From a virus, in IMG/VR virus record IMGVR_UViG_3300042887_000976, positions 1-64,000 of that record: DNA of 64,000 bases; one strand, written 5' to 3'. The position numbers and the translations under genes were made by a program. Positions 33,086 to 38,775 of the stretch are shown here, piece by piece. The number at the start of each line of letters is the position of its first letter. The stretch's first letter is position 1. A model generated the notes under the pieces. That model did no database searches, was not told the origin of the DNA, and saw only the letters and a list, made by a program, of their open reading frames with translations.

Positions 33086-34630
33086 TTACACCTCTGAGTT
33101 AGCCATAAACTCTGTTAATGAGCCTACGTTTAGTTCAAACTTACCATGGCTGTCGTACCCTTTGTCAATAAACGCACCATTAATTCCACGTTTTTGTTGA
33201 AGCATTTCGTACTGCCTTTCTTCAATAGAGCCTTTCATTACGAATGAAGTAATTGTAACGTGGGGGTGTATTGAAGATAAACGGATAATACGGGCATCCC
33301 GTTGGTCTAGTTTTCCAGCAGACCATGGGAGGTCGTAGGAAATGAGGTAGTTGGCGTTCGGTAAGTCCACGCCATACCCACCTGCGTCTGACGATAAAAA
33401 AAGACGGACATTTGGGTCAGTTGCAAACTTCTGTTTAGCAATGTCCCGTTCTTCAGCAGACATTCCTCCCATGAATAAAACGCTTTCAGAAACTTTCTGC
33501 GTTGCTTCCTGGATAATCCGTAAGTTCTTTTTAAAGAATGAGAATAAAACAACCTTATTATTCGGGTCTTCATCTAATACATCCTTAATGTATTCAAGTA
33601 CTGCGTCTAGTTTAGGACTAGTTGCTGATTTAGTCAACCAACCGTGTGCAACCACATGGCTGGCGTACTCACTACCATCAGATGTATTGGGGTCAAGGTA
33701 CTTTTCTGCGGATTCAAAAACAAGTTGTGGGTTGTCACAAAGCATACGAAGAACTGTAAGTCGGGACATAATCTGACCTTGGGCTTCTCCTCCTGCGCCA
33801 GTGTTGTAGTGAGCCCACAAGTCAAAACCTTTACCGTATTGGTTAACCGCCGATTGAAGTTCCTGGAGAAGGTCAGCCGCAATCATGCGGTATGCCTTAC
33901 CACCTGAGTTATCAAATTGAACTGGAATAACTTGGTTAATAACCTTAGGAAGTTGGTCTTGGATGTCTTCACGGGTACGGCGAACCATTACGTCACCAAT
34001 CGTTTTGTTTAGTTGTTGTAAGTTTCTGTAACGCACGGGTTTGCCGTAACTGTCACGCACAATAAAGGTGTTATCAAAGATGTCAAACCGACCAAGAACA
34101 TTAGGGTTTACAAACTGCATGATAGAAAACAGTTCTTCAGGACGATTTTCAATAGGCTGGCCTGTCAATGCAAAACGATAATGGCAAGTCTTACCAAGCC
34201 GTTTAAGTAACTTAGAACGTTTAGCACTAAACGATTTAATGATAGTGGCTTCATCAATAACCATTGCATCAAAGGCTGCTTTTTTAAACAATGGTTCATC
34301 GTGGATAAGCATCTCAGGATTAATGATTGTGTATTGAGCAGAACGAGATAAACGCCAAAGGGCTTCACGTTCTTTGGGGGTGCCATCAATAACTACTGCA
34401 CGAGATGTGGTGAACTTTTTGATTTCACGGAGCCATTGGTATTTTAAAGAAGAGGGAACAACGACAATGACACGGTCAATATCTCCAACATCTAAAAGAT
34501 GCTCAACAGCCGATAGGGTGGTTGGCGTTTTGCCTGCACCCATAACCATTGCAAGAAGGATTTGACCACGGTCAACCATCTTTTCTTGTGCTTCTTGTTG
34601 AAAAGGATAGAGAGTTCCTGTAAATGTCAT
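33086..34630 (-). CDS. SNF2/DEAD-type helicase
   Basis: 514 residues. Walker A MVMGAGKTPTTLS, DEAx box VIDEATIIKS, FALTGQPIENRPEEL motif III, and C-terminal SSDAGGYGVDLPNANYLI with WSAGKLDQRDARIIRL (motifs V-VI). This is SF2/SNF2-like ATP-dependent DNA translocase, used for recombination, replication restart or repair. ATG; its start overlaps the primase gene by 4 nt. Confidence 0.85.
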   Translation of the reverse strand: MTFTGTLYPFQQEAQEKMVDRGQILLAMVMGAGKTPTTLSAVEHLLDVGDIDRVIVVVPSSLKYQWLREIKKFTTSRAVVIDGTPKEREALWRLSRSAQYTIINPEMLIHDEPLFKKAAFDAMVIDEATIIKSFSAKRSKLLKRLGKTCHYRFALTGQPIENRPEELFSIMQFVNPNVLGRFDIFDNTFIVRDSYGKPVRYRNLQQLNKTIGDVMVRRTREDIQDQLPKVINQVIPVQFDNSGGKAYRMIAADLLQELQSAVNQYGKGFDLWAHYNTGAGGEAQGQIMSRLTVLRMLCDNPQLVFESAEKYLDPNTSDGSEYASHVVAHGWLTKSATSPKLDAVLEYIKDVLDEDPNNKVVLFSFFKKNLRIIQEATQKVSESVLFMGGMSAEERDIAKQKFATDPNVRLFLSSDAGGYGVDLPNANYLISYDLPWSAGKLDQRDARIIRLSSIHPHVTITSFVMKGSIEERQYEMLQQKRGINGAFIDKGYDSHGKFELNVGSLTEFMANSEV

Positions 34631-35547
34631 TTAAACCACTTTGGAATAGCAGAGGCTGAGGAAACGGCTTCTACGATTTTATCGTCAGTCATATCCCCAA
34701 TATCTTTTGCGTTAGTACCATCATAGTTTAGCCAAAGAACGCCCTTGCGAAAACGTGGCAAGGTATCAAATAACTTTTTAGAAGCGGTAATACCTGCTTC
34801 ATCATTGTCCATGGCAACAATCAAACGGTCAGCATATTGTTCTAGCAAGTTAATCTGAGTCGTGCTGATAGCAGCCCCAAAACTAGCGAGACCCTGAATT
34901 TCTGAATGAATGCTTGTAAGGCGAACAACATCTAAGGGTGACTCAAGCAAAATTGCAGTCCCTCCTTTAAAGCGTTCAAGACCAAATAAAGTTTCAGACT
35001 TCTTAACACCTACAGGGTAGTTACGAACCCACCCACTCTTTTTAGATTGCCACCCCAAAAGTTCTCGTTCACGAGTAAACAAAGGAAGAACCCAACACTC
35101 ATTCTTTGTATCCCAACGCACAGAGTGCAACCTACAGGCTTCTTCTGTAAGGTTTTTTGTTTGTAATACATCTTGAGGAATATCGGCAAACTTGGAGTAC
35201 TGCACAATGTCCGCTTCTTGTCTATGCACAACAGTTGGCATAGTAAGACGTTCTAGTCCCATAGTTGCAATAGTTGCGTAGTAGTCATATGCAGGTTGGT
35301 CAGAACCTGTTAAGTCTTGTACAAGTCCCATTAGTGAACCACGAGCACCACAAGAAAAACAAATCCATGCTCCTGTTGAAGCATTCATAGACCATGAAGG
35401 AGACCCATCTGCTTTGCCAGTTCTTGTTATGTGTACAGGACAGCGACCACTAATCTCACGTTCACCAACATTAGTGACTTCAACACCAATGGAGGTAAGC
35501 ACATCTACAAGACTAGTAGTACCAGTTTCCATGACTGTCATCTTCAT
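34627..35547 (-). CDS. DnaG-type DNA primase
   Basis: 306 residues. The N-terminal zinc-binding domain has CPVH (about 36) and WICFSCG (about 61); the Toprim part has LLESPLDVVRL and AMDNDEAG. It would make RNA primers for the polymerase. Start ATG with GGAGGTAG upstream; it overlaps the helicase gene by 35 nt, so exact start is uncertain (three ATGs in the first six codons). Confidence 0.85.
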   Translation of the reverse strand: MKMTVMETGTTSLVDVLTSIGVEVTNVGEREISGRCPVHITRTGKADGSPSWSMNASTGAWICFSCGARGSLMGLVQDLTGSDQPAYDYYATIATMGLERLTMPTVVHRQEADIVQYSKFADIPQDVLQTKNLTEEACRLHSVRWDTKNECWVLPLFTRERELLGWQSKKSGWVRNYPVGVKKSETLFGLERFKGGTAILLESPLDVVRLTSIHSEIQGLASFGAAISTTQINLLEQYADRLIVAMDNDEAGITASKKLFDTLPRFRKGVLWLNYDGTNAKDIGDMTDDKIVEAVSSASAIPKWFK

Positions 35548-36763
35548 CTACCTCCGTAAAGTCCATGTTGTCCCAATCCCATTTAATGCGCACTTCACCT
35601 TTAGGAGCAGTACGAGCAAGAAGGACTCGGATGATTGCTTGGTTATCAATGTCAGGGTCTGATTCAACACCCAACACTAAGTCAGAGTCTTGAGCAAACG
35701 AAGAGGTGTATCCAATTGCATCAGCAGTTACTTGACGAGTTTTCTTGTTCCCCAACTTCCATGACAACACCTGGGTTGTAATAACGATAGGGATATCAAA
35801 ACGCTGTGCAAGACGCTTCAGAGAGCGTGTGATGTTAGTAAGCGCTTGTGGGCTACCTTTGGGTTCACCTTGCTCGTCATCCATCAAGTACACACCGTCA
35901 ACAAACAGAACGCTTGGGCGATACTGCTGTACTTTTCCAGTCAGTGCTGAAACAGTTGTAAGAGAAGAAGTGTCTTCAGTCATTACGAAAGGGTGCATGT
36001 TCTTTTGAAGACGCAAAGCCTTTGACAACTTCTCCATGTCTTTTTGAGACATGTCTCCACGCAAGATGCGGGTATGCGAAACACCCGATAGCAGTGCGTC
36101 ATAACGAGCAGTCTGCTCTTCAATACTCATTTCAAAAGAAACATACATTGGTGATGTTCCGTGCATGTGAGCAGCACTTGCCATGATGAGTGTCATTAAT
36201 GACTTACCCTTTTTGGCTTCACCAACAAAAGTAATTAACTGTTGTGGACGTAACCCTGCGGTAATGCGGTCAAGACCTGTAAAACCAGTTGGTATACCAC
36301 GCAATGAGTTTGGTGTGTTACGCATCTCTTCATAACGAGCAAGGCGTTCCTCCCAGTTACTAATGATGTCCACATCCCGAAGGCGAGCAGTTTCTGTACT
36401 GGCACGTTGTAGACCTGCGGAAAGTTCTTTATAGGCTTCTTCAATGTGGTTGTTGTTCAACGCAGGCATCGCAGCCGCAATTGATTGAATCAAATGTTCA
36501 CGTTTGAACGCTTCATAAATTTCATCTACAAGAGCAGAGAAAGGTTCAGCAGATGCATCCAGCAATAAAGTATCTGCGTACTCTTGCTTAAACGCACGAG
36601 CAGATGGAACTGCACTGTGTTCACGCCAATATGAAAGAATCCAAATCCATACTTCAGAAAAGTTAGGGCTGAAGTGCGAAGGCTTGATACCTGCGTTTAC
36701 AACTTCTGTAACCGATGATTCTTGGATGACTTTGCTAATTAAGAGATGTTCGGCGCTTGCCAT
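35513..36763 (-). CDS. dnaB: DnaB-type replicative helicase
   Basis: 416 residues. N-terminal helical domain, then GIPTGFTGLDRITAGLRP, Walker A GEAKKGKSLMT, and VLFVDGVYLM (Walker B), ending in a RecA-like core with GNWYY. Unwinds the fork and works with the primase next door. The start is the ATG of a TAATG junction with the upstream gene, four codons inside the longer frame. Confidence 0.85.
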   Translation of the reverse strand: MASAEHLLISKVIQESSVTEVVNAGIKPSHFSPNFSEVWIWILSYWREHSAVPSARAFKQEYADTLLLDASAEPFSALVDEIYEAFKREHLIQSIAAAMPALNNNHIEEAYKELSAGLQRASTETARLRDVDIISNWEERLARYEEMRNTPNSLRGIPTGFTGLDRITAGLRPQQLITFVGEAKKGKSLMTLIMASAAHMHGTSPMYVSFEMSIEEQTARYDALLSGVSHTRILRGDMSQKDMEKLSKALRLQKNMHPFVMTEDTSSLTTVSALTGKVQQYRPSVLFVDGVYLMDDEQGEPKGSPQALTNITRSLKRLAQRFDIPIVITTQVLSWKLGNKKTRQVTADAIGYTSSFAQDSDLVLGVESDPDIDNQAIIRVLLARTAPKGEVRIKWDWDNMDFTEVDEDDSHGNWYY

Positions 36764-37188
36764 TACAGCATCCATGCTTTCTGTGGGTCAACTACTGTTG
36801 CACGGATACCAATGATAGCGGCCTGTTCTTGAGTAGGAACAAGTATCCTACGGATAGAATGCTTAAAACGCAAGTCGTATGCCAACTCTTCAATATTTGA
36901 GTAAGCAAGCACTGGCAGTGATACACCTTTGCGAAAGAACCAACTTTCAATTTCTTCAGGGTACGGCAAGAAAGTATAAATTTCTGTGCTAACGCCTAAA
37001 CGGTCTGAGGTGTCAATCAATGCTTTCAAAGGTAGGTCATTAGGTTTCCAATGACGAATCTCTTTCTCAGCAGTTTCTGTACTGCGCTTAAAGATGTTGT
37101 ACTTTTTATCAGGAGGAGTTGCAAGCAGTCCTTCAAAGATAACGCCCTGACCAGCGTCTACGCCAAGACTAATATCGTTACCCTGCAC
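36763..37188 (-). CDS. Hypothetical protein of the replication operon
   Basis: 141 residues from a GTG (VQGNDISLGVDAGQ) that overlaps the loader gene's stop by 11 nt and has TATAGGA upstream. The frame continues upstream with an ATG (37239), so the start is uncertain. RRILVPTQEQAAIIG and TVVDPQKAWML end it. Role unknown. Confidence 0.5.
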   Translation of the reverse strand: MQGNDISLGVDAGQGVIFEGLLATPPDKKYNIFKRSTETAEKEIRHWKPNDLPLKALIDTSDRLGVSTEIYTFLPYPEEIESWFFRKGVSLPVLAYSNIEELAYDLRFKHSIRRILVPTQEQAAIIGIRATVVDPQKAWML

Positions 37189-37819
37189 GGCGTGTCCTAT
37201 AGTCCAGTCCTGCTGTTTCAATAATGAAACTGCTCTCATGGATGACTGATGCAAGGTGTTGCCCGTAGCGGTGTGCAATTGTGTCTGGTGTCAAAATAGA
37301 AGTGATAAGAGTTGTTTTCTTTTCTTCATAGCGATTGTCAATTAATGCTGCCAACGCACTGCGTGCGAAGTCAGTTGTTGTGCGTTCTGAGCCAAGACTG
37401 TCCAAAACAAGGATGTCAAAAGTACGGCGCATGTACATAAGCAAGTTTGGGTCTGAGTAGCCATCCGACAACTCACCGTGGTTGCGAGTCTCGTCATAAA
37501 CCATATCCAAGTAACGGTCAGCAGTAATAAAGATTCCTGAAAGCAAATTGTTTTGCAGGGCTTCTTTCAAGGCTGCTTGAACCAAGTGGGTCTTACCTGT
37601 ACCTGTTGGCCCAAATAGAAAAATACCCATTCCATTTTGAACATGCTTTTCAGCAGAGCCAGACCACTTCTGTACACCTGCAAAAGAAGCAGGGTCTCCT
37701 TTATCCTGGTCATAAGTTGTAAAACTCTTATCTGCATAACGAGCAGGTACACGAGCATTTTTTAAACGTTCATCTACTGGTCGGTTTCTCCAGTAGCGGT
37801 CGCTACGCCATTCAGCCAT
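37178..37819 (-). CDS. DnaC/DnaI-type AAA+ helicase loader
   Basis: 213 residues. FLFGPTGTGKTHLVQAAL is Walker A, FDILVLDSLGSERTT Walker B, and the arrangement matches helicase-loader ATPases. In phage lambda the equivalent of this role is gpP, encoded next to O. Here it follows the initiator-like and 37.8-kb genes and precedes DnaB, as expected for a loader. Confidence 0.85.
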   Translation of the reverse strand: MAEWRSDRYWRNRPVDERLKNARVPARYADKSFTTYDQDKGDPASFAGVQKWSGSAEKHVQNGMGIFLFGPTGTGKTHLVQAALKEALQNNLLSGIFITADRYLDMVYDETRNHGELSDGYSDPNLLMYMRRTFDILVLDSLGSERTTTDFARSALAALIDNRYEEKKTTLITSILTPDTIAHRYGQHLASVIHESSFIIETAGLDYRTRRAG

Positions 37820-38235
37820 TAATCCTCCATCAATCTAGCGTCAAGTCCCCACTTGCCGTATTCTTCATTAGGGTTGCTGGTACGGAAACTTTGAGCAAGT
37901 GCGTCAAGGTCTCCCAAGAATACACGCCAAGCCAAAAGTTCTGGCTTTAAAGGTTTCGTCCGCAACTTACTAGCGAAGGTGTCAATCATGCCACGAATAT
38001 CTGCGTGTGTAAAGCCCGCTTCAACAAGTTTTTTAAAACCTTTAATTAGGGCGGGACCATTGACGGGGGCACCTATGCGAGCCATGGTTTCTATTGGCAT
38101 TGCATTACTAAAATAATAAACTAATCCTGTTAGGCTATCCTGACGGGGTTTCTTCTTGGGGACTGCAACTTCTTTTGGGCTGTCGGGGTCACTCCCAATG
38201 GCGTTGCCCCAGTCATCATGATGTCGTGATGTCAT
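37819..38235 (-). CDS. Hypothetical protein between initiator and loader
   Basis: 138 residues, helical (LTGLVYYFSNAMPI; ALIKGFKKLVEAGF), start ATG overlapping the initiator stop by 4 nt. Its position suggests a replication accessory role. Family unknown. Confidence 0.6.
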   Translation of the reverse strand: MTSRHHDDWGNAIGSDPDSPKEVAVPKKKPRQDSLTGLVYYFSNAMPIETMARIGAPVNGPALIKGFKKLVEAGFTHADIRGMIDTFASKLRTKPLKPELLAWRVFLGDLDALAQSFRTSNPNEEYGKWGLDARLMED

Positions 38236-38723
38236 GACATCAACCTAGAGTCAATCCTCTCAAATCCTTTCTTCTTCTTTTCTTCTTGTTCTTTACTCTT
38301 GTTAGGGGTGTCAGGGGTGACACTACCTATGGTGTCAGGGGTGACACTACCTGGTGTCAGGGGTGACACTAGGGGGGTGGTATCACCAGTGACACCATCA
38401 GGCAGTTTAAAAGTGTTTGGATTGTTAAAGTTCATGGAGTAAATGTTGGGTGCATTGCGCCCACCTTTAGAGCGTTTTGTCTTTATAAGCACACCCATTT
38501 CACAGAGTTTCTGTATTGCCCTAATGACCGTGCTACGGCTCAAACCTGAGTTCTTTGCCAAGGTGTTGTAACTAGCCCAGACGTTCTGGTCGGCATCTAG
38601 ATAACAACACAAATGCATCAGAACTAACGCCGTAGTTCCATCGTCATTCAGGTACTGGAGTACCCACCGTGGAATAGCCAGAAAGGGCCCTGAGAAGCGA
38701 TTTAAAGGGCGTTTAGTAGACAT
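38232..38723 (-). CDS. Lambda-O-like replication initiator carrying iterons
   Basis: 163 residues. Residues about 1-95 form a winged helix: PRWVLQYLNDDGTTALVLMH, then YNTLAKNSGLSRSTVIRAIQ with the recognition helix, GVLIKTK. The middle (about 110-150) is low complexity (PGSVTPDT repeats) encoded by four 16-bp palindromes. The C-terminus is lysine-rich (KEQEEKKKKGFE). Its order initiator - loader - DnaB matches lambda O/P/host. The start ATG follows CGGAGGTACCAC. The iterons lie inside the coding sequence, as in lambda. Confidence 0.75.
   Translation of the reverse strand: MSTKRPLNRFSGPFLAIPRWVLQYLNDDGTTALVLMHLCCYLDADQNVWASYNTLAKNSGLSRSTVIRAIQKLCEMGVLIKTKRSKGGRNAPNIYSMNFNNPNTFKLPDGVTGDTTPLVSPLTPGSVTPDTIGSVTPDTPNKSKEQEEKKKKGFERIDSRLMS
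38308..38323. repeat. Iteron 1, 16-bp palindrome
   Basis: GTGTCA-GGGG-TGACAC. The four copies are spaced 22-26 bp centre to centre inside the initiator-like gene. Confidence 0.85.
38332..38347. repeat. Iteron 2, 16-bp palindrome
   Basis: Identical to iteron 1, GTGTCA-GGGG-TGACAC. Confidence 0.85.
38354..38369. repeat. Iteron 3, 16-bp palindrome
   Basis: Identical to iterons 1 and 2, but offset in the reading frame: here it is read as VSPLTP, the others as SVTPDT. Confidence 0.85.
38380..38395. repeat. Iteron 4, degenerate
   Basis: GTATCA-CCAG-TGACAC: one mismatch in the left arm, and a different loop. Confidence 0.65.
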
Positions 38724-38746
38724 GTGGTACCTCCGTAGGGGTTGTA

Positions 38747-38775
38747 AGTGTACACCCACCTGAGGGCGTATGCAA
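38747..38775 (-). promoter_or_regulatory. Promoter of the replication operon (initiator-like gene)
   Basis: -10 TACACT (38747-38752), 17-bp spacer, -35 TTGCAT (38770-38775). Lies in the gap between the divergent genes; a leader of about 17-20 nt with GGAGG. Confidence 0.65.

Follow-up and report, generated by a model that had tools for sequence, protein, structure and literature searches.

An initiator gene of an uncultured phage carries a candidate intragenic iteron replication origin

The window, a 64,000-nucleotide stretch of a 77,672-bp viral record, contained a series of replication genes on the minus strand, in which the initiator gene harbored an array of palindromic iterons. The features of the locus were as follows:

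34627–35547, minus strand: DnaG-like primase, assigned by domain and family matches
35513–36775, minus strand: DnaB-like replicative helicase (phrog_19, 2.6e-60)
36763–37278, minus strand: conserved 171-aa gene between the loader and DnaB, with no assigned function
37178–37819, minus strand: DnaC-like AAA+ helicase loader (phrog_50, 1.6e-40)
37819–38235, minus strand: conserved 138-aa neighbor of the initiator gene, matching no known family, with the tail LDARLMED
38232–38723, minus strand: initiator gene (163 aa), composed of an HTH_36 winged helix, a linker, and a short C-terminal tail
38235–38258, minus strand: C-terminal tail of the initiator, RIDSRLMS, with the conserved motif D-x-[RK]-[LIMFW], identified by motif count
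38262–38304, minus strand: A-rich purine tract after the last iteron, a candidate unwinding element, identified by base composition
38308–38323, unstranded: iteron, exact palindrome GTGTCA-GGGG-TGACAC, identified by sequence match
38332–38347, unstranded: iteron, the same exact palindrome, identified by sequence match
38354–38369, unstranded: iteron, exact palindrome in another reading frame, identified by sequence match
38380–38395, unstranded: degenerate iteron with three mismatches, GTGTCACTGGTGATAC on the minus strand
38433–38669, minus strand: winged-helix DNA-binding domain (approximately residues 19–97), assigned by Pfam HTH_36 and structure prediction
38517–38546, minus strand: recognition helix GLSRSTVIRA, whose variable residues accompany the iteron half-site in relatives

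Genes for an SNF2 helicase, an SSB-like protein, and PolA were located further downstream. The likely start of the initiator was the ATG at 38723, preceded by CGGAGG, and its stop was at 38232. An earlier sequence-only reading had proposed a lambda-O-like origin at 38262–38775. The place was right, but the span was slightly too wide upstream and ended short of the 3′ end of the gene.

The iteron-carrying gene had been expected to encode a winged helix, and this was confirmed by its best Pfam match, HTH_36 (2e-13). The predicted structure of the initiator was confident over the winged helix only, with low confidence after it. When the predicted winged helix was used as a Foldseek query, the RepA initiator domains 4pql, 4pt7, and 5kbj were found among many generic winged helices, with no match at an E value below 0.001, and a profile search of solved structures with the initiator gave weak CodY matches only. 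The initiator matched PHROG families of replication initiation, including the O-like families phrog_678 (2.5e-17), phrog_8540 (1.7e-16), and phrog_391 (8.5e-15). The matches to the initiators of PHROG 270, 678, and 8540 were significant and extended through the linker, with the models of PHROG 270 and 678 being about twice as long as the window initiator and that of PHROG 8540 being of similar length (196). Phage_rep_O (PF04492) was absent from the Pfam matches of the initiator at E ≤0.01, and RepA_N (PF06970) gave no Pfam match, so that the likeness to RepA_N was at the level of the winged-helix fold only. In lambda O, a C-terminal domain makes the contact with P. The window initiator ended about 60 residues after the winged helix and was devoid of a C-terminal domain; complete related initiators consisted of 149–192 residues. 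The proposed likeness to lambda O thus held for the layout, the presumed mechanism, and the PHROG O-like match, but did not extend to a Phage_rep_O match or a C-terminal domain.

The motif scan reproduced the array as first read. The palindrome GTGTCAGGGGTGACAC was present in three exact copies and one copy with three mismatches between 38308 and 38395, with start-to-start spacings of 24, 22, and 26 bp. The four sites were located in the linker-coding part of the initiator gene, more than 300 bp into the gene. Within the window, the palindrome had four matches with up to three mismatches, compared with a mean of 0.52 in dinucleotide-shuffled sequences, and none of 100 shuffles reached four. 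A search of the whole 77,672-bp record, which had been suggested as a check, gave no further copy with up to two mismatches outside 38308–38395, and the array was therefore unique to the initiator gene at this threshold.

The repeats were conserved as DNA rather than as peptide. Counted along the plus strand, copies 1 and 2 encoded SVTPDT in the minus-strand gene and the third encoded VSPLTP in another frame, in agreement with the initial translation. Across the family, the sites began in two codon phases, giving SVTPDT in some members and VSPLTP in others, and therefore the peptide differed while the DNA did not. In the closest relatives, the arms of the palindrome were largely kept and the four central bases varied. 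When the window gene was recoded synonymously according to the phage's own codon use, four like dyads were obtained in none of 5000 trials and three in six trials. Since the sites fall in the linker, whose peptide is repetitive, the palindromes could be regarded as a by-product of protein-level selection for a VTPDT-rich linker. This explanation is highly improbable, because the array was not recreated by synonymous recoding, the two reading frames gave different peptides from the same DNA, and the half-site varied across the family at a constant linker position. Peptide-level selection was discarded as the cause of the repeats on the basis of the recoding test and the two reading frames. The four-base centers of iterons in one genome agreed at more positions (2.81 of 4) than the centers of corresponding sites in different genomes (1.88 of 4; 0 of 2000 permutations), as would be expected if the copies are homogenized together.

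The A-rich purine tract noticed after the iterons was also present, 31 of its 61 coding-strand nucleotides being A. Of all 60-bp windows of the record, it ranked in the least stable 3.6%, a moderately low stability, and thus a candidate easily melted tract adjoined the repeats. In the relatives, A made up 52% of the 60 nt past the last site, compared with 28% of the remaining gene, and the content past the site was higher in 40 of 40. A switch in GC skew, which had been suggested as a check of the origin, was not found at 38 kb; the cumulative minimum was at 52.1 kb. GC skew gave no support and was discarded as origin evidence. The record is possibly incomplete, and a further origin could be present in it.

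The conservation of the dyads was analyzed in two samples. In the first, loci were collected by homology to the loader and hence blind to the iterons. All 14 family contigs that included the initiator, some of them near-identical, had three to four dyads inside the initiator gene, 13 being detected by the cluster scan and L086 by a relaxed scan. The cluster scan found no dyad arrays in shuffled sequence. In the second sample, collected by homology to the initiator, at least three sites were present in the linker of 40 of 43 distinct initiators. In the remaining three, one or two sites were detected; two of these initiators had short linkers that were apparently truncated or poor in sites. Absence of the palindrome from related initiator genes, named beforehand as evidence against an origin, was therefore not what was observed.

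The loader-linked loci also included unrelated initiator-like genes with dyad arrays of their own, at L083:2816–2930, L117:2590–2672, and L102:1013–1131, whose half-sites were TCGGA, GCATGC, and TTTACC, respectively.

A search by DNA alone, without protein input, found two tandem GTGTCA-N4-TGACAC palindromes in 31 viral stretches, which were not independent because several contigs come from the same family; a reversed-arm control found none. About 25 of the 31 fell in winged-helix initiator genes, and two had no containing ORF. Among these initiator genes, one (L013) encoded a true Phage_rep_O protein and another (L034) had DnaT domains. At L036:7698–7735, the two palindromes were located before, not behind, a possible winged helix, in a gene without a Pfam match. 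Among 85,000 bacterial and archaeal species genomes, 13 tandem matches were found, of which about three were in initiator-like genes. The motif alone was dropped as an origin diagnostic, because most cellular tandem matches fall outside initiator genes.

A palindrome recognized by a winged helix is a classic form of operator. The initiator could accordingly be an autoregulator that blocks transcription within its own gene, with the origin located elsewhere. In several Streptomyces genomes (L205, L208, L211, and L212), paired GTGTCA-N4-TGACAC sequences were found outside initiator genes and resembled operators of an unrelated gene, and sites of the lambda O type could serve both roles. However, the four sites were deep within the gene at helical-turn spacing, the A-rich tract accompanied them in every one of the 40 relatives, the protein matched replication initiators, and the operon consisted of replication genes. 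A purely operator function is accordingly unlikely.

The gene order was largely as first read. The AAA+ loader and DnaB follow the initiator, but the 138-aa gene precedes the loader and the 171-aa gene separates the loader from DnaB. The order initiator, 138-aa gene, loader, 171-aa gene, DnaB, primase, and SNF2 helicase, followed at some distance by SSB and PolA, was kept in many viral contigs, even where the initiators were only 39–48% identical. The nearest DnaB proteins of cultured phages were those of Streptomyces phages, with approximately 34% identity, and an actinobacterial host is therefore a guess. The DnaB family of this locus had a conserved ...WYY end after an acidic stretch.

The 138-aa protein gave no Pfam, PHROG, or fold match, with matches to designed repeat proteins being disregarded in the fold search. 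Its tail had a motif in common with that of the initiator. The motif D-x-[RK]-[LIMFW] was located at the end of 33 of 40 initiators and 29 of 34 neighboring 138-aa proteins, against a background of 2.1% per 22-mer. In the window, it was found at the end of the initiator, the 138-aa gene, and one other ORF only. In one clade, nearly all members of both proteins were without it. The initiator and 138-aa tails of the same genome were alike at 3.33 of 5 positions, compared with 2.96 of 5 in shuffled pairs, a difference from which relatedness was not removed. Given the shared motif, we infer from these sequences that both tails may dock on a common partner, either the loader or the helicase.

A perfect 16-bp palindrome, TGATGTCATGACATCA (38227–38242), covered both the initiator stop and the beginning of the 138-aa gene; in the relatives L006 and L007, it was not conserved.

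Taken with the several spaced repeats in the initiator linker, the arrangement characteristic of an intragenic iteron origin, the conservation of the sites as DNA, the A-rich tract, the PHROG matches, and the gene order make it very probable that the locus is a replication origin of the lambda-O and SPP1-gp38 kind, for which it remains a candidate judged from sequence. In the proposed mechanism, the winged helix of the initiator would bind each GTGTCA-N4-TGACAC palindrome as a dimer, and with all four sites, 22–26 bp apart, occupied, a nucleoprotein complex would assemble midway through the initiator gene. The adjoining A-rich tract would then open, the AAA+ loader would deliver the phage DnaB, and the phage primase and PolA would act thereafter, so that replication would start at this locus. 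The short D-x-R-L tail is presumed to recruit the loader or the helicase, because the initiator has no C-terminal domain.

Three known systems were compared with this arrangement. The origins of lambda and Stx phages lie next to an AT-rich region in the middle of the O gene, and each of their iterons is an inverted repeat (PMC7466680). Four such iterons in the middle of the initiator gene, with an easily melted tract adjoining them, were common to lambda and the window phage, as were a winged-helix-type N-terminal part of the initiator and, in the proposed mechanism, the subsequent action of a loader and a helicase. However, the half-site and center differed from those of lambda, and in the window phage the loader was DnaC-like AAA+ and the helicase was phage-encoded. 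In SPP1, oriL consists of direct repeats inside gene 38, which encodes gp38, followed by the loader gp39 and the DnaB-type helicase gp40 (PMC6316719). SPP1 has a second origin, oriR, whereas the window record had no second array of the iteron motif, and the loader families differed by annotation. In the plasmid pSK41, the N-terminal winged helix of Rep binds four boxes located centrally in rep, and the iteron DNA encodes the linker (PMC5703833). The C-terminal domain of RepA_N proteins, which is essential and binds DnaG, had no counterpart in the window initiator. The candidate origin in the window is therefore a variant, since its initiator has neither a C-terminal domain nor a Pfam match to lambda O or RepA_N.

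The plasmid comparison also bears on whether the array is instead a centromere-like partition site bound by the winged-helix protein. The Foldseek matches of the predicted winged helix included centromere-binding proteins, such as TubR and AspA, as well as initiators. However, no partition ATPase was seen adjoining the gene, the neighbors being the helicase loader, DnaB, and primase, and the chimeric plasmid initiator pPR9 Rep, whose rep region supports replication (PMC5703833), has an HTH_36 domain in common with the window initiator. The fold matches included 4pql and 4pt7. A partition site is thus very unlikely.

The recognition helix varied together with the half-site. In most initiators, the second residue of the helix motif was Ser, Asp, or Gly, and the half-sites were GTGTCA. 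Initiators with asparagine in the helix had GTGACT or GTGTCT half-sites, those of the YHRTT group had GTAGC or GTAGT, and those with SRIT had GTATC. The alternative half-sites kept the same positions and nearly the same spacing. A non-GTC core was found in all seven HRT/SRI initiators, and GTC or GAC in all 33 others. On a tree built without the recognition-helix residues in question, asparagine had three separate origins, and 2.6 of 3 independent pairs showed the same shift of the inner base; three non-asparagine initiators also had the shifted base. Two changes of the core class were found, both coinciding with a change of the helix. The sign tests gave p values of 0.25 and 0.5, as the association cannot reach significance with so few independent changes. 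This sequence association is suggestive of direct recognition of the half-site by the helix.

These observations could tentatively be extended to a minimal initiator family, consisting of a DNA-binding domain, a linker doubling as the origin, and, in place of a C-terminal domain, a short docking peptide shared with the neighboring protein for a possibly common partner, in which the helix and four iterons change in concert. We consider this reading plausible but somewhat short of probable. If it is true, the concerted change would represent a natural specificity code for phage origins. The literature search found nothing on the iteron sequence or a half-site code in phage O-like initiators, which does not prove that no such report exists. 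Intragenic iteron origins as such are familiar from lambda, SPP1, and RepA_N plasmids, and the principle is therefore not novel. The family is useful in that it provides at least 40 distinct initiators of uncultured phages, with the protein and its sites in one 500-bp segment and with specificity changed several times. It would allow a test of how a new origin is acquired when eight half-sites in the protein's own coding sequence must change together. The tail motif common to the initiator and its neighbor offers a testable route of helicase recruitment without a C-terminal domain. For phage contigs, a rule for finding origins would be to seek three to five dyads, each with arms of approximately 5 bp, in the linker region of a winged-helix initiator gene.

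Among 12 cultured or complete phages, 11 carried at least two dyads in the corresponding gene, the arms being approximately 5 bp and the center 5–6 bp long, with the two-copy cases being weak because the dyad search was permissive and had no shuffled control; Salmonella SI8 had no dyads in this gene. The half-sites were GTGTC in the E. coli phage mEp554, whose O carried four copies of GTGTC-N5-GACAC, GTGCA in SfV, TGCCA in RothC, ACCCA in the Gordonia phage Lennon, and GTGAC in the Psychrobacter phage Y8A.
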